A model generated the notes under the pieces. The model had not been told where the DNA came from. It ran no database searches and worked only from the letters and a program-made list of their open reading frames with translations. Positions 1,919 to 48,978 of a stretch of DNA of 64,000 bases are shown one piece after another. The translations under genes and the position numbers were made by a program. Source of the DNA: Rosa chinensis (taxonomy: Eukaryota; Streptophyta; Magnoliopsida; Rosales; Rosaceae); contig NC_037094.1 of NCBI RefSeq assembly GCF_002994745.2, positions 43,041,139-43,105,138 on the forward strand, written 5' to 3'. Numbering within the stretch: the first letter of the stretch is position 1; every line of letters begins with the position of its first letter.

Positions 1919-4900
1919 TGAAGATATATCATGGGGGTAACATACTTGGAAACAAGTACATTGGTGGGAAGATATCCTTCTATGATTATGTAGACAATGA
2001 TAGGATGTCGTTGACCGATCTAGATAACATGGTCCAAGGGTTGAACCCAGATTATGCAGGTACTAGGATTGATTATTGGTGGAGTATAGGAACAAAAGAT
2101 GATGCTTTCACAAAAATAGATTCGGATGCGGATGTGTGCACTATGCTATGTTGTGTACCCGAAGTGAGATTGGTTGTTGTGTACTTAGATCATATTCATG
2201 AAGGTGATGAGAGCTTGGGTGAAGATGAAATCTATATATATCCAGCTGGTTTTGATATGTTCAGTCAGTCCGGATCTACTGGAGTTGTGATTGAAGAGCT
2301 CCCTGATGAGCCGAGAAAGAAGGCTACATGTGTGATTGAGGAACCAAAGCTGGCTATTTGTGAGACAACAAAACCAAGGTAGCAAGGTATAGTCATCAAA
2401 GAACCTAAAGTCTCCATCCCAACTCAAGGCAGCAAAGTGGCTGAAACAGATCCAAAAGATAAGGGTAAAGGAAAGATGTACCCCGAGTCCGGTCTTGTAG
2501 CAAAGAGTGTTGATGGTGTAAGTCGTCTAGATGAAGAGATGCTTCAAGATATAGATATTCTAGATTATATGCAATCATTTGGGTTCCACCCTGAACAAGA
2601 AGATGAAGTGGATAACAATGAGAGTGATGAGGATGATGAATACATACCCGCTACTGAAGATGATGAATATGATCAGTATGGTGTTGATGACGACGATTGG
2701 TTGGAGGAAGCTGATATAGGGTTTGAGGTTAATGACAATGGTGAATGGGTTGGACCAAGTAAAGAAGTTGTTAAGAATGTGGAGATGGAAAGTGGAAAAG
2801 AGTTTGAAGATCATACAGATATGTTTGGATCAGCCGAGTCCGATGAAGAGAGATTGTGGCCTGCTTTGAATTCTGATGGTGAAGAGGAAGTACCATTCCC
2901 TGAGTTTAATCCAGAAACAGATATGAAGGACCCGGTCTTCAAGAAAGGGATGATATTTGGTAGCACTGCCATTTTGAGAGAGGCTATAAGGGAGAGAGCT
3001 ATTAGAGATGGTTGGGAGATATATTTTATCAAAAATGACTGGAAAAGGGTGAGGGCTATATGCAAGTCCCAAGACTGTCAATTCGAGCTCTATTCATCTA
3101 GGATGCAACATGAGGAATCACTTATGATCAAGACTTATGAGCCACAACACAAGTGCACGAGAGTCTTTGATAACAGCATGCTCAGTGCTAAGTATTGAAC
3201 TAAGTGTCTCATGGAAAGGATCAAGCTGAATAGTGGCTGGAAGATAGGTATCCATTCTAATCTCTTCATGTTTTTGTTTGGTTACCGTTTGTTGTGTAGT
3301 TTTCAAATTTTTTTGACAAGTTTGGCTGCTTCAAGTTGGAAATTATAGTGCCTCCCAATTCCTAATTTTTTGTCTTGTTTCCTTTTTTTTTTTGGTTTTT
3401 GCAAATTTTGGTTGGTTGCAGCAAGTTGCAGGTGTTATATGATTTTGCACATTCCTAGGTTCTTATGTGAAAAGCTTGTTTCAATTGTATAATTTTAGAG
3501 TGATTAAAACATTCATGTTTGTATTTTTGCTTGTTTTAGAGTAATTAACCAGCTAATGCTTCAGTTTTGGAGTGATTAAGCATTCATGTTTGTATTTTTG
3601 CTTGTTTTAGAGTAATTAACCAGCTACTACTTCAGTTTTGGAGTACAGTTTTTTTTGTACTGTTTAAACAAAAATACTTTTTTTGCTTGTTTTGCTTGCT
3701 TCAATGGTTGTTGATCCTTGGTTTGGTTTTTTTTTTTTTTTTTTTTTTTTTTCGGTTACAGAATCCTTGGCTCAAACTATGTCTTCAGAAGTTAGAGTAA
3801 GGGTCTCCAAGCAGATGGCTTATCTAGTAAAGAAAGCAGTCCTTTTGGTGTTGGAGGGAACCATCATGGAGCAGTATGCCAGACTTCGAAATTATGCGAA
3901 TAAGCTTAAAAGGGTGGACCCTTCTACAACCGTTGACATAAAATGTGATTTCAGCAAGGGAGATAGCCTTCCAATCTTCAAGAGGATGTATATCTGTCTT
4001 GGAGCTCTAAAAAAATGGATTTAAAACTGGATATAGGTCTCTGATTGGGCTAGACGGTTGCCATTTGAGGTCTGCATATGGGGGTCAGCTCTTGACAACT
4101 GTTGGCATTGATGCCAACAACACTTCATGGGTGATTGCCTACGCAATGGTAGAGATGGAAAGCAAAGACTCGTGGATTTGGTTCCTAGAGCTTCTGTGCA
4201 AAGACCTGAGTATACTTGAGGATGGAGTAAGTTGGACTTTCATCAGTGATAAGCAAAAGGGTTTAATCCCTGCCTTTGAAGAAGTGGTTCCATTGGCCAA
4301 GATTAGATTTTGTGTGTGCCATATGTGGACAAATTTTACGAAGCTGTTTCCGAGAAAGGTACTAAAGGATCAAATGTGGAGATGTGCAAAGTCAACTACA
4401 CTTCCTTACTTTGTAAAGGAAATGGAGGAGATGAAGGCTTTGGATAATGAAGCGTACAAGTGGATGACACGTAAGTTTTCGAGTTTACAAAGTTGCTGAT
4501 TTTTTTGTTTTTGTTTTTTTTTTTTGCTAAGTTGACCCATATCAAGACTAATGGCTGCTGCTGCTTGTTTTGTAGATAAGGATAGGCCTCCACAGCATTG
4601 GTGTAGAGCACACTTCGACACTTGGTCGAACTGTGACATTATGATCAACAACTTATGTGAAAGCTTCAACTCGTTCATTTTTTATGGTAGAGCAAAACCA
4701 CCAGTGAGTATGTTCGAGGAAATGAGAGTGAAGCTAATGAAGATAAACCTAATAAGAAAGGATAAGATGCAAGCAATGGTGGGAAATCTGTGCCCCAAGC
4801 CTAGACAAGTACTAGAAAAGAACAAAATGAAGGCTACTTCATATTGCATTTCTACCGGGAATGGTGGTGACCAAGTGGAGGTGGAGACTTTTGAAGGAAC

Positions 4901-5946
4901 AAAGAGTGTGGTCAACCTTACTGCAAGGACCTGCACATGCCGAATGTGGGACTTAAGTGGTGTTCTATGCAAGCACGTTGTCTCAGCAATATACAACAAC
5001 AGGGCAGATCCGGAAGACTTTGTTGCAGATTGCTACTTAAAAAAGACGTACCTTAACTTTTACAGCAATTTGATCAAGCCGGTTAACGGAATGGAGATGT
5101 GGACTAGGAGTGAAGAACCACCAATTCTGCCTCCACAGTATTTTAGACAGCCTGGACGGCCACGAACAAAGAGGATTAGAGATTTATCGGAGAAGTTGGC
5201 TGCACAGGGAACAAAGCTTGGAAGAGTTCAGCGGTCGTTGAAGTGTAGCAATTGTCAAAGAGTTGGCCACAACGTGAAGACATGTCACTGACATCTTCCA
5301 CCAAAAGATAAGTAAGCTGCAAATGTGAACAAGAAAAGGAAGCTCAACAATGGAGAAGGAAGTTCATCTAAAAAAGCCCAGGTAATTCTTTTTTTTCTGC
5401 ATATGTTTAGTGTACTTTTTCAAATTATTTTGTTTATGGGGCAGCTTGTTTATGTTTCTGTTTTAAGGTTGATCCCATAATTTTTTTGCAGCCTAAACCT
5501 GGAAGAAAGCCACCATTGAGTAAGAATGACTTGAGGAAAAACCATCTAAAAGTGGTAGAATATCAAAGGGTATGAAACATGGATTTTAGCTTGTAAACTT
5601 TTTATGTATTTGTTGATGAATAGGTCTGTGATTGGGCTAGTGATGCTTTGCTTTTGATATGAATGTGTTGACAATTATATTCTTGTTTCTGATTTTTTTG
5701 TGAGTGTAGAAGAAGATGGCTGCATTGAAGGCATCTAGAAAAGCTACTGCTGCCACCCTTGCTAACTCTACCAAAGATGCTGCTGCCACCACAAAATCTA
5801 AGTCCACTAAAGCTGCTGCTGCTACCACATCTACCTCAGCAACCACGAGGCCTTCGACATCAAGTAAAGCATCAAAACGCCAAACTCCAACACCTTCCAG
5901 ATCATCTCAAAGGATTAGGCAGAATTCCAAGCAAGGGGGAAAGTAG
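1919..5946 (+). pseudogene. MuDR-like (MULE) transposase, degenerate
   Basis: A multi-exon Mutator-like transposase relic. From the N-terminus: a PB1-like domain (from ATG 1919, starting MKIYHGG), a long acidic linker rich in D/E, the MuDR DNA-binding domain (about 2930-3198), the MULE DDE-type core (3760-4470 and 4578 on, with GLDGCHLR, the ISDKQKG aspartate, an FCVCHMW C..H motif and NNLCESFN), a SWIM zinc finger (CTCRMW...CKH, about 4925-4980), a CCHC knuckle (CSNCQRVGHNVKTC) and a basic Ala/Thr/Ser-rich tail (5716-5946). Likely introns are 3247-3759, about 4472-4577, 5382-5491 and about 5572-5709. Lesions: TAG at 2380-2382 with the frame open on both sides, TGA at 3196-3198, a one-base frameshift near 4010-4016, and TGA at 5289-5291. 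The element cannot encode an active transposase. Confidence 0.9.
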
Positions 5947-18426: not shown

Positions 18427-21158
18427 TTATAAATTCATATCGAAGTCGTCCAAATCCTCAATCCTTGCTGCATCCGACTCCATTAGCCGTTTCAGCTGTG
18501 ATGCACAAATCAAATAGATGGACTAATTAATTACAGAGAGAAATACTTTCAGACCAAAAATAAATAAATAAATAATAGCAGGCAATGCATGTCTCAAGGA
18601 ACATCTAAATGCAATGAGGCCTCATGAGAACAAATCTTACAAGACTCTAAATTCAACAAAAATTGGAACACAAATAAACAATTGTTCCAAGCTTCCAGCA
18701 GCCAAGTCCAAAATAGTCATAACACAACACAAGATAAACTTCTGAAGAAAGAAACATCGCAGAGAAGAATAACGTAGAGTAAAAGTAAAATACGATTCAA
18801 TGATTGAAGTGCAAGCAAGCTTGGTCCAGGAAGAAGGAAACAAAATTCACACGCAGAATAAAATCAACCTCTTGAGGAATTTCCTGCGTATCATCCGGCT
18901 TCGACTGCATCTCCAAAACGGTCCCCAAAACTGTAAGAGTTGCAAAAACTCTTCTCGTCCGTGCTATTATCTGGGACCTGGTTTTAAAACAAATCAATCA
19001 AACATCTACACAGAGACATTGTTCTGTCTTTACCGGATTGAGTTTAAACTTTAAAGCCCTCAGTAAATGGACGTTGGAGGTAATGATTAAACAGTACGGA
19101 AAAATTAATGTTTATGACCATTAATAGTCCAAAATCCTAGCAGAAGAAAATAGGTCACAAGAGTAATATAGGGAAAGACAAGGAAACAAAATCCACACCT
19201 AATTTGGTTCATAGCAGAACTGGATTAACTTACTCTCTAAGGTTATCACTGGAAGAAGTACTACACTCCCTCATCTTCATTTTTTCCTGCAGCAGCTTTT
19301 CGACATTGTTCTTCTCCCTATAAAGTTTATAGAACTGTTGTAATAGAACAAAGTCTTCACTTCTATCTATGGTTGCGTTTGCACTTCTCCTCTGTGATAG
19401 CGCTTGCTGAAAATTTTGTTCAAAGGAACCAAATAGTACAAGTTATATCCAAACTGAATTACAGAAATCCAACAATAATTGAATTACAAACATAATGGTC
19501 AAATTGTCAAAAGCAGCTGTAGTTTTTCTAAAGATACTTCTACCTAAGTAAACACCAACATCTTTTTAGAAGAAAGAAGCCTTTCTATTAATAAAACAAG
19601 CAGTACGTCAATATGAACAATACATCAACAACAGTCGCAATACAGTCAAACTAACTAACAAGTGTCTTCCTGCTGCCTAATAATGTAGCAGTAAAAGAAA
19701 TAGCCTGAACTCAGATGACGCCCAAATTCAAAATATATTTATAAACAAAATGAAGATGAATCAGTATGAATCATCAAAATCATGAATTCTGACTCATAAT
19801 TATTTCATTTATAATGGATTATGTACCCAAACACATGTGCTTCCACATATATTGTCAGAAAGAAAACAATTCAAGATTTCGTTCAAACGCTGGTCAACAT
19901 GTTTACACATGGCTGCATAAAAGATGTCCCACATATTGATCCATTATGAGTGGAATTACATAACAGATCCAAATGATAATACCTGCAGAAGCTAAAAAAA
20001 AAAAAAAAAAAAAAAATACCTGCAGAAGCTCATATTTACATGCAAAACATGTTATTGTATGCATGCAAAACATGTCATTGTATGCAAAATGTAAGAATCC
20101 AGAGTGATTGAAGTATCTTCACCTATGAAATATGAAAGATATACCTTAATGACACAAATCAGACCAGCCTTAAACTGCAATACTCCGTTTCCTTCACTAT
20201 CACAATCCAGATCTAGAGCCAACGAATAACCCTGCTCACATACTGCAGGTGAACAGGAAAAACTCTAACTAACAAATGAGACTTACAACCAGATAAACTA
20301 TGTATTTCATAAGATTTACAAATATTTCACCAGCAACAACGGAACTTAAGTGATTCATCATGCACAATAAATTTGTTTCCCTTAAATGAACCACAAAAGC
20401 CATCTGCCAACTCTACCTATCTTTTATTTGTTCTTTCTGGAAATTCACAATCGGAAAGAAGATGAATAATAGGAATTCAAAGCATTTGCAAACATATAGA
20501 TAAGCTCTGTGACCTAGTTGTAGAAAAAGCAAGGCTTTCTTTTGGTATAAGGCCATCAGAACTAAATGAGTAACAAACTAGAACAGCAACCAAAATATAT
20601 ATATATATATATAAACATACAAAAAACTCAAAGACTGATTTATTTGAGAAACAAACAATAAACGGCCCATAAACACCACCAAAGTACTTCAGTGAAAATT
20701 AAAAAAGATTTGCATCAAAACTTTGTATGACTTGCAGAAGATATAGTACAGAAAGGTTCAAAAACTGCAATAATTAGTTACCCCCTTGTAAAGCAATTAG
20801 CTAGACAAACTCAACAAATTGAAGAAATAATATACTCAAATAATCAGAACCTCCTTCCCAAATAACCCATTCCAATGGGGAAAAAGATAAACGAGACACT
20901 GAATGACATACAAATTCTAGAGGCAATAAGATTTTCATCTTCGATTTCATCTGCAGCTTCCAAAATTTTATTTATAACCCTGCTAATTGCAAATGAAGAT
21001 CGAACTTTTCCAACAATGCCTGTACCATGCCGCCTGTATGCATCAGTTCCCAGCCTTTCCCGTTTTAGTACTGCATGGACTATACGCTCCCATCGCTCCT
21101 CAACTCGAGATGTTTTTCCAATATCGCAAGTACCACGCTCCTCAATTTGAGACGGTTT
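18427..21158 (-). repeat. Integrated callose synthase unit 2 plus terminal exon
   Basis: Exons 21158-20912, 20242-20145, 19406-19234 and 18977-18869 repeat the exon order, sizes and phases of unit 1 (residues 741-949). A last exon, 18495-18427, adds LKRLMESDAARIEDLDDF and a stop. Introns also align with those of unit 1: for example 19560-19850 and 22010-22300 share phrases and order. The two arose by segmental tandem duplication rather than by retroposition. The first exon of this unit is about 39 bases longer because its N-terminal SQIEER/SRVEER stretch is itself duplicated. Confidence 0.85.
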
Positions 21159-21408
21159 CTGGAAAACACAGTAAGGTATAGCAAATTCCAGCATTGATGT
21201 AGCATTAAAAATATTTAACAAAAATATCTAATCAACCTCTTCGGGAGTTTCCTCCAGCTGCTCCAAAACTGTCTCCAGAATTCTTAGAGTTGCAGAAACT
21301 CTTTTCCTTATACTTGTTTTTCTTTCCAACCTGATTATTGGATAAAGGTAAATAATCAATATGGAATCCAAAGAAGACGTGAAACAATTGCATTCCTTCT
21401 TGTGTCAG

Positions 21409-21472
<64 letters not shown>

Positions 21473-24400
21473 ATTAGTACAATCTGCAAGACAATTATGT
21501 GTTAAGCCTCCTAATATGGAAGGAATTAACTAAGCACTAGAGAAAAATTTATGCATCATGATCATAAAAAAATCCAGAATCCTACCGGCTACTAAAACAC
21601 GTATTTAGGGTCCTATCGTAAACTTAGAACTTACTCCCCCAGATTTGCACAGATAGATCCAGATTCCCTCAACTTCATTTCTTCCTCCCGCAGCTTTTCT
21701 ACATTATTCTTCTCTCTATAAAGTTTATAGAACTTCTGTAAGACAAGAAAATCTTGGCTTCTATCCACAGTTTCACCCCCCCTCCGTGCTTGCTTTTGCT
21801 GGAAATTTTTGTTCAAACGAACTTAATGATACAAGTTATATTTAAACAAATTTGAAACATAGAAATCAAACAATAACTGATTTACAAACATAAATTCATG
21901 CATAAGGCTTAATTGTCAATATATATATATATATATGTATAATAGTGTGTGTGTGTGTGTGTGTGTGTGTGAGCGCGCACGCTATTACAGAAGCGTTGAC
22001 ATGAAGAACATTTTTGGAAAAAAGGAACCCTTTATCAACATAATACGCAGTTGAGCAATGTTGACAAGATGTCCACCTAAATAAAACACAGAAAGTACAT
22101 CATCAAGAGTCTGAAGTATATTTAGTCAAAGTAACTAAATACTGCCTTCCCATCTAGTAAAATAAAAGATAAAGAGATAGCCCTAAAATTGGATGAGACA
22201 GATCCCCAAATTATGATATGTATTTATACAAAATAAAAAATGGATTGTGAGTGATTCTAGCTAAATCATGAACTTGGACTCAAGAGTGTATTCAATAATG
22301 CGTATCACATAACATGATCATCGTACAACATAAGAGTTATGAGAGCATTGGGTGCCACTTGTGCTTTTTATGCACAGCTGCACGAAAAGAAGTCTGATCC
22401 CACAAATTTTTACACTACAAGTGAACTTATTAAAGAGAAACAACAATACGTGCAGAAACAAATGGGTGCATGCAAAAGATTGCAGGGTATGATGCAGTAT
22501 GCAAAATGTAAGAACCAAAAGAAATTAAAAGATAGTTCACCTATCTTGTATGAAACAAATACCTTGAAGCAAGTCATCAATCCAATCTTGAGTTGTAATA
22601 CTCCCCTTTGGTCGCTATTAGAATTCAAATGTGCCAATTTATAACTGTGCTCGCATACTGCAATTGAACAGAAATTTACCATCTTCCATCTCCCACTTAA
22701 CATGCAATCTAATTAAAAGATGAGAGTTGCAACTGTATACTAAATTTATCTTACAAGATTACATATATATTTCACCAGTAACAGCTGAATTTAGATGATT
22801 CTTCAAGAAAAATAATTCTGTGAAGCTAAAAAGAACCAGAAAAGTAGTACCATCAAACAATTCTACCTATCTTCTCTTTCTAGTTTTTTGAAATCAACCT
22901 TTAGAAAGGATCTGAATGGTAGGAATTGATAGCATTTCCATATAAATAGTAACTTTCCATGAAATTCCTCTTTGCTTTATGTGTTATAAGACTCAATTGA
23001 TCCCTTTCAACCCAGATAGGTGATTTGGGAGTGTTCTGTACGTATTAAACTACTTATCGCATGGTTAGAGTTATGTTGAGATATCAATTCTTGTTATTAT
23101 GCTTTCAAAAAAGAAAACTATATTCTTTGTATTCCCCCTCATAATTTAATAACACCGATGTTGATATTGATGATTATATTCTTTTATTGCTCCTCATCAC
23201 ATATTTAAAGTAGGATGTTGTATGTATTTGTCTGTGGTTTGGGGTTGGCCAGGTTTCTCTACAGGCTTTGCCCTCACTTGTAGAAGTATAGTACTAAAAG
23301 GTTCAACTTGCAATAATTTGTTACTCTTGTAAAGAAATTATCATGGAGAGACTCAACTAATGGTGAACTAATGTACTGCAGCTATTAGCTAAGATTATAT
23401 AAATAATGGAGAGAAAGGCAAAGAAGAAGTGAACAACGATAACATACAAATTCTACTGACAATGGGATCATTATGTTGGATTTCATCAGCAACTTTCAGG
23501 ATTTCCTGAACTTCCCAATTAGCAAGCCATGGAGATTGAACGCTTGCATCAATGCCAATACCATGGCTCCCATTTTCAAAAGTTGATTCCTTTCTTTTCC
23601 AACATAATACTGCACCGACTAAACGCTCCCATCGCTCCTCAACTCGAGACCTTTTCTGGAATATAAAGACAGTTAAATACAGCAAAATAAAAGTAAATTG
23701 CTCAACTTATTAAAATCCTAAAGAAGATCTATTCTCCTTAAAGTTTCTATATGGAGATTAGTAAGGAGACTAGATCCTCCATAGTCACTTAAAAAGCTCA
23801 AAGATCTAATCTCCTCATACGAAGATATTGGATTGGTGGTTTTACTGCCTATTGAATTGAAAGGTTGCAACTATTACTCCTTCTCTAGATGTTCCATCTC
23901 TTTCTTGTGCCATAATATTCTAATTCTATTCTAGTTATTTATATCTTCTTTGGCCTTCCAATCATATCTTCTCCATTCTTCCTTTTATAGACCTATATCC
24001 CCTTCTATGAATCTCTTTCAAGTTCTAAATTCTCTCACCTAGTACTATATATTTTACTGCATTTGGATACTGCAGAAATTTAAAAAATAAAAAGAAAAAT
24101 AAAAAAACCATTTAAGTACTTTCAGGTAATAAAACCTGGAGTTTTGTACATACCAACTCTTCGGAAAGGTTGTGTAAACCAGCTTTCACCAAAAACCCAT
24201 TGTTGTTCTCGGATAATGTAGTTGATATGGCCATATCCCGAATGACATCATGCATCCTTACACATCCATCTATTTCACTGTCTAAAAGCAAGTTTGATGC
24301 TTTAAGGTACTTGACCACCGAATGGATTATGGCTCTGGCTTCATTCATGGTGTTGGAATCTCGAAATAAACCATGACTGATCCCATATTTAAGCAAGTCT

Positions 24401-25908
24401 TCAATGCGGATGTCATAGTCTTCTGGGAATAGACAGCAAAGCAAGAAGCATGACTTGGCAAGATCACTTTTCAAGTAATCATAGCTCAACTTTATACATT
24501 TGAAAACATCTCCCTCATCATCAAGGCTGACAGGTTGAGACATCCCTAGTCGTCGAGCTGCTTCTTCCCATTCATCCATGTCTTTATATTGCAGTGCCCT
24601 TGCAACTGTTATCAATGCAATTGGGAGACCAGCACATTCTCTAACTACCTTCCTCGCTATATCATAAAATCTGGTGGATTCATGAAAAGAATGTCCCACT
24701 TCCTTTACAAACAAGCTCCAAGAATCTTCTTTTGATAGGATGTTAAGAGGGATGATTGCTTGGCTCCTCATGACTTGACAAACAGATAATCTCCTTGTGG
24801 TGAGCAAGAGTTTAGAATTACACTTTCTAAGCTCATTGTAGCTGGGAATTCCTATGCTTGATAAATTTATATTCTTCCACATGTCGTCCAAGATTATAAG
24901 AATCCTATTTCCTCTCATTATTCTATCCTTCAATCTACCAGCTCTTCCAATTTCTGTCTCCTCTTTCAATTGCATTCCCAACATATCTGCTAATATGCCT
25001 TGAATTTTGATCAAGTCAGGGTTTTCAGATATACAAGCCATAATCACATGATCGAAGATCCCGTCTCTTTTGGCTTGTGAACTGACATATGTAACCATGG
25101 TTGTTTTGCCGACACCTCCCATTCCGTTGATGCCAATGACAGTGATGTTATCATCTTTAAGTGCCGACACGACCTTATCCATAGCTTGTCTGGTTGCTTC
25201 AAATGCCTCAAAATCTCCAGTATGCATTATACACTCGATTTCAATAGGTCGTGAAACTTGAAGTACTTTGCTGCACACAAATGTCACAATGCTTTTGACA
25301 AGCTCTCTTTCGGATCTACAAAAAGAGAGGAGTCAATCAATCGTAGGCAAATAATAGATCTAAAAGTACAAGTGCAAATCAATCTTGTTAGGATAGTCTC
25401 ATCATGCTTACACATAATTCTTGGCATCCCAGCCACAGAGATAGGCAACTTTATTTAAAGCATCTCTCCACTGCTTGACCTTGTCCATGTCTTGCCTAGA
25501 CTGTTGTTCATGTTTAGTGAAGGCTTCTTGAAAACTTCCCCTTTGATGGCGTACATCAGAGGGATCAACGTGATAAAAAAGAGGCAGAATTCTGTTCTTG
25601 TCTTCCATGCATTGAAAAATGTGTGTAAGTTCATCCAAACACCAAGAAGAAGAAGCATAATTTGGCGAGAGAACAATGATGGCAAACCATGATTCTTGGA
25701 TTGCCATTAGGAGACTTGGAGAAATAGCTGTCCCTATTTCAAGCTGCTGATCATCCTTGAATGTTTTAATCCCTCTCCTGTTTTGCAGCTCATCGTATAA
25801 ATGGGAAACAATGCCCTTGCGGGTGTCTTCACCCCTGAAACTTAAAAACACATCATGCTTCCACCGACGAGGAGAAGCCGGTTCAGCTGAGGCTCTAAGC
25901 AGGGCCAT
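18427..25908 (-). CDS. TIR / CNL-type NB-ARC / (callose synthase N-terminus)x2 NLR
   Basis: Predicted intracellular immune receptor. Exons on the minus strand by GT/AG sites: 25908-25412, 25315-24154, 23655-23448, 22657-22563, 21798-21635, 21330-21237, 21158-20912, 20242-20145, 19406-19234, 18977-18869, 18495-18427. They sum to 2916 nt, 971 residues plus TAA, with all phases matching and no internal stop. The ATG at 25908 is chosen because the frame upstream has no ATG. TIR: about residues 16-160 (HDVFLSFRGEDTR; conserved Glu about 93 in SSSWCLDEL, the NADase position). NB-ARC: P-loop GMGGVGKTT 230-238, kinase-2 ILIILDDMW to 312, RNBS-B LLLTTRR, GLPIAL 395-400, RNBS-D CFLLCCLFPEDYDI, MHD 520-522. 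These are non-TIR-class motifs. No LRR follows. Residues 554-740 and 741-949 are two copies of a callose-synthase N-terminal region (EERWERLV, ADEI, RILCEHSYKLA, GVLQ.K.GLM, TVDRSQDF..LQKFYKLYREKNNVEKL). The last exon (SDAA) also matches. Splicing is predicted, not observed. Confidence 0.85.
19978..20030. repeat. Poly(A) tract flanked by a 16-bp duplication
   Basis: AATACCTGCAGAAGCT occurs at 19978-19993 and again at 20015-20030, separated only by an A tract of about 23 bases. It lies within an NLR intron (between exons 20242-20145 and 19406-19234). This looks like a target-site duplication around a bare poly(A) insertion. Confidence 0.6.
21237..23655 (-). repeat. Integrated callose synthase unit 1 (four exons, with introns)
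   Basis: Exons 23655-23448, 22657-22563, 21798-21635 and 21330-21237 encode residues 554-740. They begin KRSRVEERWERLV and end EQLEETPEE. Compared with CalS9/GSL10-type callose synthases they keep the ADEIQ block, the RILCEHxYxLA block, the GVLQ block, the DRSQDF...FYKLYREKNNVEKL block and the ELERKTS.RKRV.ATL block. The glucan-synthase catalytic region and membrane spans are not present. The C-D intron holds a long GA microsatellite (about 21416-21470) and the B-C intron a GT tract (about 21944-21971). Confidence 0.85.
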
Positions 25909-29108: not shown

Positions 29109-31175
29109 TTAGTTTTTCCTCCTGACAAAACTTTTTACTATTCTACAGGCCTCTTCAAAACGGTTATGCTGAACCAGAGAATCCAACATTACATTGCAAA
29201 TAGAAGAATCGGGTAAATAATCATATGCTTCCATAGAGAGGAATATCTCCTTTGCCACGTCAAGTCTTCCCAAGTCACACAATGCCTTGATAAAAACACT
29301 GTATGTATAATTGTCAGGATTCAAACCTGATCTCAACATAGCAAGAAAAAATTCCTCTGCTTTCTCAACCTTGTTCATCCTACAAAGACTTTGAATAAGA
29401 TAACTGAAAGAGTAAGTATCTGGTTTTATTCCATCTACCTGCATACTTTTCATTAGTCGCACTCCTCTAGCAATATCTCCGACGAAACACAAAGAGCGTA
29501 ACAATATATTGTATGTGATGACATTTGGAGTGATCCCCCACCTGACCATCTCAGCAAAACAATCGAAAGCGTCATCAATCTGGTGCACCCGACAGAGTCC
29601 GTCAATTATTGTACTAAAAGTGAATATATCTGGTTTGAAACCATGTTGTAGGAGCATTATCAACAGTTCATGTGCCTTACTTACCTCTCCAGCCTTGCAA
29701 TATCCAGTAAGAAGTGTATTGAATGTTACAAGGTTAGGAGGAATACCTTTCTGCTGCATATCTCCAAAAGCCTTTGATGCCATGTCCATAATTTGGGCTT
29801 TGCAAAAGCAATCAATTACCATGTTATATGAGAAGACACTAGATACAAGTCCATCCTTGGTCATTTGCTCAAAGATTTGATTCCCCTCATCAACGTTTCC
29901 AGACTTGTACATAGCTTCAATTAATGCAAGATAAGAACCAAATCCTGGTTTTCCACCTCGATGTATAAAACTTTCAAATATATCATGTACATCATCCCGA
30001 GGATGAGCTGATTCCTTTGTCAAACAAACCATTGCAACGTTAAATGTTGAACTGTCAGGCAAATAACCTTTCGCACCAGATTTCTTTAAAAACACAGCAA
30101 TCTCCCTTGCCATGTGGTTAATTGAAAGGCAATACAGTATGGTATCACAAGCTACCTTAAACAAGAGAGACTCCCTTTCAACAAAACTTAATAACAACTC
30201 AAAAGCCTTACTGGGGTCCATGCAACGAAACACCCCATGAACCAATGATCTGACAGTAGCTTCATTAGGAGTCACATTCTTATCCCTCATTATCTTCATA
30301 ACCCCAAAGGCCTCATCAACCCTCCTTGAATTACAAAACCCATCAACCAGAATTGTATAAGTACGAACATTAGGCAAGTATCCCAAGCCCTCCATTTGCT
30401 TGACTAAGCGGAGAGCTTCATCCACAATACCAATCTTGCAAACTCCATGAATGAGGATATTGTAAGTGAACCTATCAGGATAGCAATTATCTGCAGGCAT
30501 CTGTTGGAATTTCAAATAAGCCAAGTCAAGTGAATTGGACTTGACTAAGGCATCGATCACAGCATTGTACAACCTAGTGCTAAGACCAAGACCCAAAAAC
30601 GAAATTTGCCCAAAAACCTCAGCACAATACTTTGCCAAACCCAACCTCCCCCAACTACCAATTAATATGCAAAGCAAATCTTCAGTGACCTTCAAACCTG
30701 AGTTGTTAATATCTTTTAGCAATTCAACAGACAACACAACTGGGCCTTTCCTGAAAAGAGTGTTGGCTAAAACACTGCGAACCGATTGATTCTTTAAGAA
30801 CAAGGGATCAATATTCGAAACCCATATCGAAAACTTGAAAGGGTGCAATGGGTTTTCTTGGTTTTGCAAGACACTAGCAACGGCCTGAGGATTCAAAACG
30901 ATCCTCCTGGCATTCAACTCGTGGTCGAGTAACAAAAACCAGTCCTTGCGAGAAAGAATTCGAGCAATGTAGAGGTGGTCGATTGGTTTATTAGCAACAC
31001 GAAAATTGGTATTCTTAGCTGAAATGAGATTGTTTCGAAGCTCAAAGTAATTACCTTTGTGAGGAGCAGAAGGCAGAGGCTTGCTGGGTTTGATTTTTGA
31101 TGAAGGCGAGGGTTTGTGAGGGAGGGTTCTGAGTGCCGGTGAGACCCTAGAGGCTAAAGAAGAAAGCCATCTCAT
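29109..31175 (-). CDS. PPR40: Mitochondrial PPR protein, PPR40-like (At3g16890 type)
   Basis: Single-exon gene of 688 residues; ATG at 31175, since the frame upstream starts only with GTG. The N-terminus (MRWLSSLASRVSPALRTLP) is Ser/Arg-rich and poor in acids, as in mitochondrial presequences. A PPR40-typical block (DWFLLLDHELNARRI, VASVLQNQENPLHPFKF) precedes about a dozen P-class PPR units with the pattern YNILIHGVCK..VDEALRL and NVITYNILLRSLC. There is no E, E+ or DYW extension, so no editing deaminase is expected. Known of the family: Arabidopsis PPR40 associates with mitochondrial complex III and affects electron flow and stress response. The orthology call rests on remembered resemblance across the length. 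There are no stops or frameshifts, and the gene looks functional. Confidence 0.9.
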   Translation of the reverse strand: MRWLSSLASRVSPALRTLPHKPSPSSKIKPSKPLPSAPHKGNYFELRNNLISAKNTNFRVANKPIDHLYIARILSRKDWFLLLDHELNARRIVLNPQAVASVLQNQENPLHPFKFSIWVSNIDPLFLKNQSVRSVLANTLFRKGPVVLSVELLKDINNSGLKVTEDLLCILIGSWGRLGLAKYCAEVFGQISFLGLGLSTRLYNAVIDALVKSNSLDLAYLKFQQMPADNCYPDRFTYNILIHGVCKIGIVDEALRLVKQMEGLGYLPNVRTYTILVDGFCNSRRVDEAFGVMKIMRDKNVTPNEATVRSLVHGVFRCMDPSKAFELLLSFVERESLLFKVACDTILYCLSINHMAREIAVFLKKSGAKGYLPDSSTFNVAMVCLTKESAHPRDDVHDIFESFIHRGGKPGFGSYLALIEAMYKSGNVDEGNQIFEQMTKDGLVSSVFSYNMVIDCFCKAQIMDMASKAFGDMQQKGIPPNLVTFNTLLTGYCKAGEVSKAHELLIMLLQHGFKPDIFTFSTIIDGLCRVHQIDDAFDCFAEMVRWGITPNVITYNILLRSLCFVGDIARGVRLMKSMQVDGIKPDTYSFSYLIQSLCRMNKVEKAEEFFLAMLRSGLNPDNYTYSVFIKALCDLGRLDVAKEIFLSMEAYDYLPDSSICNVMLDSLVQHNRFEEACRIVKSFVRRKN

Positions 31176-31555
31176 TTCCCTCACCCTAGAGGCTAAAGAG
31201 TAACCAATTCAATAAACTAAGGCTGAATTAGAGTATCGCCGATTCTCCCCCAGAGCATAGCGAACAATCTCATCACATTTGGTTGGAGTCTCCATAGAAA
31301 AGGATTGACTATGAATCAAAGGAGAGCTCAAGGGTTAAGTAATTGGTAAAAAGGCTGAAAGGATTTTCCAAGGGTTTCAACTTTCAAGAGAACTCTCGAG
31401 TGTTTCATTCTCAAACTCTTGAGAGTCTCATTTCCCAGTATATACCTTTTTATATTTATTTATTTTTAAATCAAAAATACATGTGTATGTAAGGATTTGA
31501 TTACCCAAACAGCCAAACTCTGTTATTTACGTACATTTGACGTTCTAAATTGGAA
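31176..31555. other. PPR gene 5' flank
   Basis: Contains the likely promoter and leader of the minus-strand PPR gene. A short direct repeat (CCTAGAGGCTAAAGA) spans the start region at about 31146 and 31186. No other gene is seen. Confidence 0.5.
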
Positions 31556-46335: not shown

Positions 46336-48978
46336 ATGACCGAGCCTTCTAAACTCCCAACTATACAAGAAATTGAAGAAAGGCTTGCTCGTTTGAAGAA
46401 TCCTCCACAACTTGAGTACAGAAGACCCTCTCCTTTACATTTAAGGAATATATATTTAACGAGCAAGGGAAGAGGTTATTTCCTTCTGAGAAGTCTGCAT
46501 CACCTACGCCAACTCCATCTCCTCCTTCACGAACTCCATCTCCTGTGGTTTCGTCTAACTCACCTTCACCTCAGACTACACCTCCTTGTTCACCATCCCC
46601 TGAAAAAGAAGAGAACGAAAAGATGGCTTCTATTAGAGAACTCTCTTCATCTGTGGTTCAAGGAGGACTTCCCACAAGTATTGTGTACCCTGCCCCTGCT
46701 GCAGGGAAGACTGCAGACTTTGAGCTGAAGAGTGGATTACTTCATAGGCTCCCTATGTTCCATGGCCTTAGTATGCAAATAAGCATATCCGAGAATTCCA
46801 GTCTGTGTGTACCACCATGCAACCACAAGGAGCGGATGAGAATATCCTTAAGATGAAGGCTTTCCCTTTTCCTTAGCTGACCGTGCCAAAGATTGGCTAT
46901 ATGAGATTCCTTCTGGGCGCATCACTTCATGGGATACTATGATGAAGGCCTTCCTAGAGAAATACTTCCCAGCTTCCAAAATCATTACGCTTAGGAAGAA
47001 GATAAATGGAATAAAACAAGCTCAAGATGAATCTTATTCTGCTTATTATGAGAGGTTTCAGTCCTTGATTGCCCAATGTCCTCAACATCAAATGAAGGAA
47101 GAAACCTTGCTTACTTGCTTCTACGAAGGTCTCCTACCTCTGGAACTTGACATGTTAGATGCTGTAGCTGGAGGAGCTTTTGTGGATAAGTCACCTGCTG
47201 AAGGGAGAGCCATGATTGAGAATCTAGCCAAGAATGCCCAACAGTATGAGGGTGTAGGTCTCACAACTCGAAGGGTGAATGAGATAGGTACTAATTCAGC
47301 CATTGAGGAAAGATTGAACAAACTCACCCTTCTCATGGACCAAGTTGTAAACGCAAAGGGACTTATGCAAGCTTGTGGGGTGTGCTCTATGCAAGGGCAT
47401 GTGACTGATCAATGTCCTCAACTGACAGATAATAGAGGATGGAAATCCCTAAACTCCATAGGAGGATACCAAGGGAACCATGGGGGTCCCCCACATCCAA
47501 GATATGATCCTTATTCGAATACCTACAACCATGGATGGAGGGACCATCCCAACTTCAAATGGACAAACAATGAGAGCACTCAGAATCCCCTTGGAGGTAA
47601 TTTTCAACGTCCTCAAGGACCACCTTTTCAAAGGCCTTATATGCAAACTCAACATGCCTCAAGGAGTTCGAATCTTAACTATGACAAGATGTTTGAATCC
47701 CTCACCAATTCGACTCAGGCCTTGGTTCAAGGACAACAGACCCATACAAAGGATATTGCAGATCTTAAAACGCAAATGGGCCAAGTTGTGGACTTCATGA
47801 GCAAGATTCATGAGACTGGGAAGCTCCCTAGTAACACCATACGAAATCCAAAGGGTAATGTGGAGAATGCATCTGTTGTGACTACTCAGAGTGGAAGAGT
47901 GTTAGTGGATCACCCTAAGAACTCCAAGGAGGCCCAAGTAGTTATTGAAGTTGAGGAAGAGCAAGAAACCACCAAGTTGAATCTTGAGAAGGACCCTGCA
48001 ACGTCCAGGGTAGAAGCTAGGACGTCCTCACCTCCAAAAGCAAATCCGAAACATAAAGGTAACAACTCTAACTTGTCAAATTCGGTTATTGCTAACCCTT
48101 CTTCTTCTTGCATGCCCTTCCCACGCAGATTTGCTAAATCTAAGAAGGATGAGAGTGACCAAGCTATCTTGGAAACTTTCAAGAAGGTGCAAGTGAACCT
48201 ACACCTCCTTGAGGCCATCAAGCAAGTGCCTAGATATGCTAAGTTTCTTAAAGAGCTTTGTACCACAAGGAGGATTAATCGTGAAAAGGAGGTGGTAAAG
48301 GTAAGTGAGAACGTATCTGCTTTAATTCAGAGGAAACTACCCCACAAATGCAAGGATCTTGGAAGTTTCACCATTCCATGCACCATTAGTAGCTCTAGAT
48401 TTAAGAATGCCATGTTAGACTTAGGAGCATCTGTGAACGTTATGCCCTATTCTGTTTATGAAACCCTAGGTCTAGATGAACTTAAATCTGATAATGTTAT
48501 CATTCAGTTAGCTGACAGGTCCAATGCATACCCTAGAGGTTTGTTGGAAGATGTTCTTATGCAGGTTAACCATCTTTTCTTCCCAGCTGACTTCTATGTG
48601 TTGGAGATGGAGGACTCTCCAGTGAGTTCAACGCCACTATTATTGGGTCGTCCTTTCTTAAGGACGGCCAGGACAAAGATTGATGTGTATGCTGGATCTC
48701 TCACCATGGAATTCGATGGTGATGTTATTGGCTTCAACATATTTGAAGCCATGAGGTATCCTCTTGATGTTCATGACTGTTTTTCTATTGATATTCTGGA
48801 TAATCTTGCGCAGACAATGTTTGATATCATGAATGAAGATACTTTAGTCACTACACTTGAGCAAGGAGTGGGCTACACCAAAGATGGCATCACAATCCAA
48901 GAGGATGTGCTCAAGGAAACTTGTGAGGACAAAATCATTGCAAATGTGTCCTTCCTTGAGGCATCACCAAAGTACTAA
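46336..48978 (+). pseudogene. Athila-like gag-protease polyprotein, frameshifted
   Basis: Begins near ATG 46336 (MTEPSKLPTIQEIEERLARL). The 5' part changes frame about 46440-46500, again near 46775, and by one base near 46870. From 46939 a 679-codon frame is clean: gag core (MMKAFLEKYFPASK, AYYERFQSLIAQCPQH), one CCHC knuckle CGVCSMQGHVTDQC, a long Gln/Asn/Pro-rich linker, then an aspartic protease with the LDLGASVNVMP active-site motif and the LLLGRPFLRTA flap-side motif. It stops at 48976-48978. No reverse transcriptase, RNase H or integrase follows, so the element is truncated after protease or was joined to the CACTA-like sequence by rearrangement. Confidence 0.88.

Follow-up and report, generated by a model that had tools for sequence, protein, structure and literature searches.

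Among plant nucleotide-binding leucine-rich repeat receptors (NLRs), RRS1-R and Pik-1 retain their leucine-rich repeats (LRRs), and RLM3 is not known to have an LRR or an intact NB-ARC of the coiled-coil NLR (CNL) type. In the consulted part of PMC9528084, RRS1-R, Pik-1, and RGA5 are NB-ARC receptors that contain a copy of a domain found in a different host protein; RGA5 retains its LRRs, and RLM3 of Arabidopsis is listed as a TIR-type NLR (TNL) with three BRX domains. TN2 and TN10, in the part of the literature consulted, are truncated TIR-nucleotide-binding site (TIR-NBS) proteins that lack LRRs; EXO70B1, a subunit of the exocyst, is an interaction partner of TN2, and TN10 associates with TNLs. 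Here we describe a predicted gene on the minus strand (25908-18427) of a 64,000-nt stretch of Rosa chinensis contig NC_037094.1; "the window" means this whole stretch. The gene encodes a TIR domain, an NB-ARC domain, and two tandem repeats derived from the N-terminus of callose synthase 9 (CalS9). Like RRS1-R, Pik-1, and RGA5, it joins an NB-ARC receptor to a domain copied from another host protein; unlike in those receptors, two copies stand in place of the LRRs. It is similar to RLM3 in being a TIR protein with a repeated non-LRR tail, whereas the tail of RLM3 is BRX, not CalS9. TN2 and TN10 contact a guarded protein or partner, whereas here the host-protein part is built in.

Structure of the predicted gene

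Eleven exons with agreeing phases give one frame of 971 residues closed by a stop codon, and all 10 introns are GT-AG; the gene structures of all species in this report are predictions from sequence. The initial annotation had proposed this frame, with TIR, NB-ARC, no LRR, and two callose synthase N-termini, and the arrangement is confirmed at the gene-model level. In Pfam scans the TIR lies at residues 17-184 (PF01582, 1.1e-52) and the NB-ARC at residues 209-445 (2.7e-42). The WH_DRP winged helix was under the Pfam cut-off, and no LRR family was listed even with E values as high as 1 allowed. Two units (U1 and U2) make up the tail, which begins at residue 554. Residues 556-740 and 757-966 match a profile built from ten CalS9/10 N-termini, with i-E values of 6.2e-66 and 2.9e-70. 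CalS9 (GSL10) shares with the units its N-terminal ~190 residues and the exon phases; unlike CalS9, the gene lacks the CalS9 start codon, and FKS1 domain 1 and the glucan synthase domain were absent from the Pfam scan of the 971-residue protein. The features are as follows.

Exon 1, 25412..25908, minus strand: TIR domain, residues 1-166 (PF01582)
Exon 2, 24154..25315, minus strand: NB-ARC and winged helix, residues 166-553; CNL/G10-like
Start of intron 2, 24112..24153, minus strand: likely former first-LRR codons VCTKLQVLLPEST, then a stop; GTATGT donor within
Exon 3, 23448..23655, minus strand: unit 1, CalS9 exon 1; starts AAA-AGG where CalS9 has AAA-ATG
Exon 4, 22563..22657, minus strand: unit 1, CalS9 exon 2; fast-changing between R. 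chinensis and R. rugosa
Exon 5, 21635..21798, minus strand: unit 1, CalS9 exon 3
Exon 6, 21237..21330, minus strand: unit 1, CalS9 exon 4; GTTGAT donor, read-through leads to a stop after two codons
Exon 7, 20912..21158, minus strand: unit 2, CalS9 exon 1 with duplicated 14-residue lead; CalS9 ATG absent (CCG, ACA)
Exon 8, 20145..20242, minus strand: unit 2, CalS9 exon 2; fast-changing between R. chinensis and R. rugosa
Exon 9, 19234..19406, minus strand: unit 2, CalS9 exon 3
Exon 10, 18869..18977, minus strand: unit 2, CalS9 exon 4
Exon 11, 18427..18495, minus strand: start of CalS9 exon 5, then a stop that ends the protein

The junction between the NB-ARC exon and the first CalS9 exon (exon 2/exon 3) is in phase 0 on either side. 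Both units have GTTGAT donors. The true CalS9 gene of R. chinensis (L030) shows the same splicing as the units, including an odd GTTG donor after the -PEE codons; the two donors of the units were therefore likely inherited. Read-through of intron 2 or intron 6 meets an in-frame stop, giving 566 or 742 residues, respectively. No stop or frameshift occurs over the 418 codons of the tail.

U2 opens with a 14-residue mini-repeat of the KTSRVEERGTCDIG type (window 21158-21117). R. chinensis, R. rugosa, and Argentina have one extra copy of it, and R. sericea has two.

Occurrence in related species

R. rugosa carries a protein of 968 amino acids built from the same exons; identity extends to 913 of the 967 aligned residues, the tail is 91% identical, and the TIR and NB-ARC exons show 96-97% identity. 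The fusion order is thus not due to chance. The same order had been proposed for search in related genomes, and gene models of R. sericea and Argentina anserina contain it as well. The R. sericea model covers unit 1 and, of unit 2, the opening exon. That of A. anserina comprises the beginning of unit 1 and the greater part of unit 2, and its C-terminal end, -ESDAARIEDLDD, is as in R. chinensis. The start Met of CalS9 is missing in all eight units of the four species.

In a protein database search, NB-ARC was joined to CalS9 in 3 of the 82 matches listed, and the matches to the CalS9/10 profile that carry an NB-ARC were these three relatives and the window protein. The R. chinensis model P0226 (444 amino acids) has 427 residues in one exact run of the window protein. 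It holds the NB-ARC and exon 3, so that it crosses the NB-ARC/CalS9 junction, and then enters intron 3. P0200 (R. chinensis, 305 amino acids), named putative 1,3-beta-glucan synthase, has 277 residues in exact runs; it begins partway through unit 1 and reaches the same stop. No second NLR-CalS locus was recognised among 22 matches in the R. chinensis genome (34 candidates, all scored). These matches are the window, the CalS9 region of C5, C7:10.18-10.34 Mb, and, on C2 and C5, two long single frames read within their own bounds.

Receptor family

TNL-type NB-ARC domains have a kinase-2 motif with a final D. In exon 2 the kinase-2, read from the sequence, is LIILDDMW, and an MHD motif is present. 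The best solved match of the NB-ARC alone was 9h2l, titled as the G10 resistosome of wheat, at 124 bits; NRC1 scored 89 bits, against 52 for Roq1 and 50 for RPP1. Overall, CNL chains ranged from 124 to 68 bits and TNL chains from 52 to 39. Among the family members listed, the best 120 of 1270 matches, the kinase-2-like pattern had a final W in 113 and a final D in none, the other seven being unmatched or different. The 124-bit match to 9h2l and the W in 113 of 120 members argue that, throughout the listed family, the switch attached to the TIR is of the CNL type. On the same grounds the receptor itself is a predicted TIR/CNL chimera with a G10-like NB-ARC.

The gene fits neither class. It has the TIR of a TNL, but its NB-ARC (LDDMW) is not of the TNL type and there are no C-terminal LRRs. 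The NB-ARC is nearest to G10/RPS2-like CNLs, as judged from solved-chain scores and not from an NB-ARC tree, but the coiled coil of CNLs is not N-terminal here, as the TIR domain occupies the N-terminus. Kinase-2 ends in D also in the TNL row of a table in PMC4169499. The apple "TCNL" genes of that paper, considered as the same class, are different, their kinase-2 being TNL-type (LVIVDNVD) in the part consulted. Entry titles describe the solved TIR resistosomes as tetramers and the G10 resistosome as octameric.

Foreign Pfam domains occur in 9 of the 120 listed members (NAP in four, MYC-N in three, WRKY in one, and PTEN-C2 in one); the five of these nine that were rescanned were all over the Pfam cut-off. 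CalS9 units were found in 3 of the 120. The Rosoideae receptors P0120, P0122, P0088, and P0195, with NAP, MYC-N, WRKY, or PTEN-C2, belong to the same TIR and NB-ARC family as the present gene. They differ from it in the integrated domain and in keeping LRR_RPS2 repeats, which all seven relatives scanned carry. The consulted part of a 2023 rose paper (PMC10045381) describes RcTNLs with WRKY, NAP, Pkinase, Rx_N, and zf-RVT; "callose" does not occur in its main text. Separately, P0083, P0084, and P0085 of the same family have several tandem TIR domains ahead of the NB-ARC.

Identity and fold of the units

In the tree, the units group with CalS9s, apart from two CalS10s, with support of 100/100. 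Thus, CalS10 was ruled out as the parent by this split, which contains two CalS10 rows, and of the CalS9/10 assignment made initially it is CalS9 that holds. The clade of the units has a support of 91/83, not starred by the tool, with long branches. The tree omitted the partial unit 1 of Argentina and unit 2 of R. sericea.

A partial CalS9 copy (L029, G000:C5:86649000-86658500, at 4331-5821) lies ~10 kb upstream of the CalS9 gene. Its exons 1-2 are open, and its pieces are 79-90% similar to CalS9. As a candidate parent it was not supported: it is 79-90% to CalS9, and only exons 1-2 were found.

The initial annotation had called the N-terminal domain Vta1-like. The predicted model of CalS9, not of the units, resembles the tandem MIT domains of LIP5/Vta1, which gives some support to a similar fold in the CalS9 N-terminus. 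As a Pfam domain, however, Vta1 was not found in scans of the units, and no Pfam family exceeded its cut-off on either unit or on the CalS9 N-terminus. No solved chain matched unit 2 by sequence. The structure prediction of the whole protein (P0001) has a mean pLDDT of 58, at which no domain placement is claimed; LIP5/Vta1 was absent from its 50 listed structure matches, which are filled by NB-ARC-like chains. MIT domains bind the tails of ESCRT-III proteins, and the titles of 4txq, 4txr, and 4u7e agree with this.

Two other proteins contain this region of callose synthases. P0230 (Artemisia annua, 633 amino acids) has a CalS10-like N-terminus and a protein kinase domain, and is possibly another capture of the same region. 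P0201 (Vicia faba, 503 amino acids) has two near-identical tandem CalS9 N-termini without NB-ARC and may be an annotation product.

Origin of the fusion

The true CalS9 gene sits on C5, and the window on C7. The sequence before the CalS9 start is TTTTTTGCAG-AAA-ATG; the matching place reads TATATTCCAG-AAA-AGG in unit 1 and TTTTCCAG-AAA-CCG in unit 2. Because CalS9 has a matching acceptor directly before its ATG, the fusion probably uses the acceptor that CalS9 itself has in the 5' untranslated region, which is unannotated in the records examined. AAA-ATG gives phase 0, in keeping with the NB-ARC exon, which ends in phase 0. Upstream of the junction, reading beyond the NB-ARC donor gives 13 likely remnant codons, VCTKLQVLLPEST, and then a stop. 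The donor likely lies within former LRR codons, since relatives continue in frame at the same place (LPEELVC(P/S)KLQVLLLQS) into the first LRR (best E 7e-5).

Comparison of introns suggests the order of events. The scores for intron 1 were 132 between the units and 33 to CalS9, and those for intron 2 were 91 between the units and 41 and 49 to CalS9. The final ~90 bases of intron 2 are 84% alike between the units and 75-77% to CalS9. Since these introns are more alike each other than those of CalS9, the tandem duplication most likely came after capture. A retroposed CalS9 piece is ruled out, as the CalS9 intron positions are retained. A TIR/G10-type NLR may have received the 5' part of a CalS9 gene, introns included, immediately downstream of its first LRR codons. 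Splicing would have joined the CalS9 acceptor ahead of the ATG to a GT within those former LRR codons, and the captured piece would then have been tandemly duplicated.

Selection on the units

A three-taxon codon model over 184 codons gave a ratio of nonsynonymous to synonymous rates (dN/dS) of 0.66 for the units and 0.16 for the CalS9 branch, a difference with p=0.003. Tested singly against 1, the units gave p=0.16 and 0.27. Pairwise NG86 values were 0.35 (U1-CalS9), 0.48 (U2-CalS9), and 0.65 (U1-U2). Exon by exon, the U1-U2 values were 0.95, 0.35, 0.45, and 0.97, and a Fisher test on U1-U2 gave p=0.03. The open frame is a stronger sign of constraint than dN/dS. Neutral simulation, with substitutions from present-day CalS9 and branch dS values of 0.36 and 0.23 split by hand, gave 5.5 and 4.2 expected stops in the two units, against none observed (P 0.003 and 0.013).

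The changes between R. chinensis and R. rugosa are concentrated in exons 4 and 8: of the 63 residues there, 17 are not the same in the two roses, compared with 18 of the 351 in the other exons of the units (p=9e-7). For exon 4 the count is 8 of 31 residues and for exons 3, 5, and 6 it is 5 of 152 (p=2e-4); exon 8 differs at 9 of 32 and exons 7 and 9-11 at 13 of 199 (p=9e-4). Between unit 1 of R. sericea and R. chinensis, the differences number 7 of 31 residues in exon 4, as against 9 of 156 across exons 3, 5, and 6; unit 2 of R. sericea was outside this comparison. The CalS9 counterpart of exons 4 and 8 is the most conserved of the four exons (0.97 versus 0.81-0.86) in 19 CalS9-like proteins, a count that dropped P0200 and P0223, the latter departing in that very exon.

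Proposed function and alternative explanations

The reading we favour, which seems to us to have about an even chance, is that this predicted TIR-NB-ARC receptor had its LRRs likely replaced by two tandem CalS9 N-termini that act as effector bait. We infer the bait role together with effector contact, release of the switch, and TIR signalling. An effector that targets CalS9 or the related ESCRT adaptor LIP5, by binding or altering their Vta1/LIP5-like helices, would also strike the units of the receptor. This would release the NB-ARC switch and set off signalling by the TIR; a partner with LRRs would probably be needed, by analogy with TN10 and RRS1/RPS4 as described in the part of the literature consulted. 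A bait in an arms race would show such a reversal, in which the exon that CalS9 conserves best is the one changing fastest between two roses.

Several results weigh against this reading. The dN/dS of 0.66 is not clearly below 1 (likelihood ratio test, p=0.056), so that dN/dS alone does not exclude neutrality; support for the purifying selection suggested in the initial annotation is weaker than proposed there, the lack of stops being its stronger sign. The speed of exons 4 and 8 may reflect recent local mutation or relaxed constraint, not selection, because in the deep U1-U2 comparison the fast exon combines a dN/dS of 0.35 with high dS, and because, in the comparison with Argentina, exon 8 (9 of 32 residues differ, 23 being identical) has not changed faster than exon 9 (25 of 54 differ, 29 being identical). 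The Argentina model is without most of unit 1, and the database models of R. chinensis split the locus into P0226 and P0200. The intron 3 scores, 35 between the units and 37 and 40 to CalS9, indicate no closer kinship of the units. A literature search with a narrow phrase, aimed at effectors interacting with callose synthase, returned no papers.

The split models, the stops in introns 2 and 6, and the undecided dN/dS would also suit a plain TIR-NBS protein, in which most transcripts end early and the CalS9 exons are passengers. This is rather unlikely, as the tail keeps 418 codons without stop or frameshift, R. rugosa has the same 11-exon protein, the C-terminus of Argentina is nearly the same, and P0226 uses the NB-ARC/CalS9 junction. 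It is also unlikely, to a slightly greater degree, that the units serve as a tether bringing the receptor to CalS9 complexes, plasmodesmata, or ESCRT-III sites, with sensing elsewhere. The LIP5/Vta1-like tandem MIT model of the CalS9 N-terminus and the binding of ESCRT-III tails by MIT domains agree with such a role, yet a tether should preserve the conserved exon, which is the fastest between R. chinensis and R. rugosa.

P0200, annotated alone as a putative 1,3-beta-glucan synthase, might indicate two adjacent genes, a truncated NLR and a short CalS9-like gene, merged by gene prediction. Because the CalS9 start codon is missing from both units in four species and P0200 begins within unit 1, this is very improbable; the phase-0 junction also argues against it. 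Least probable of all is a decaying pseudogene that is still open by chance. The dN/dS of 0.66 and the unit-1 exons lacking from the Argentina model would fit decay, but the TIR and NB-ARC exons retain 96-97% identity to R. rugosa, and none of the neutrally expected stops is present.

Taken as a whole, the initial interpretation is partly supported. The CNL-type (G10-like) NB-ARC under a TIR, the 14-residue mini-repeat opening unit 2, and the same-family receptors carrying NAP, MYC-N, WRKY, or PTEN-C2 go beyond it.

Neighbourhood of the gene

A long open pentatricopeptide-repeat frame lies near the receptor (window 29109-31208, minus strand). Elsewhere in the window are pieces of a Mutator-like (MULE) transposase with a SWIM zinc finger (2383-5291, plus strand) and a Ty3-like retrotransposon gag/protease open frame (46852-48978, plus strand). 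An Rfam scan of the window gave no matches. A plasmid search gave no match and was uninformative.

Implications

At the gene-model level, an intact NB-ARC is in frame with a domain from another host gene, as in NLRs with integrated domains. The predicted gene would extend this group by a callose synthase part. None of the listed records and consulted passages of the literature searched describes an NLR fused to a callose synthase, and neither "callose" nor "glucan synthase" occurs in the main text of PMC9528084. A large survey of integrated domains relies on Pfam (PMC4759884, part consulted). Such a survey would miss this class, because the units and the CalS9 N-terminus are under every Pfam cut-off.

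Somewhat more doubtfully than not, the duplicated callose synthase domains may have replaced the LRRs entirely as sensor, the TIR-on-G10 receptor being a modular rose-family platform that swaps baits, one of them invisible to Pfam-based surveys. The combination of a TIR with a G10-like switch raises a question of stoichiometry, tetramer for the TIR versus octamer for G10. If the units are bait, the pathogen target would be the N-terminus of callose synthase, or the ESCRT adaptor LIP5 that resembles it. A receptor with a non-LRR sensor in two diverged copies would be well suited to testing whether recognition can rest on integrated domains alone.

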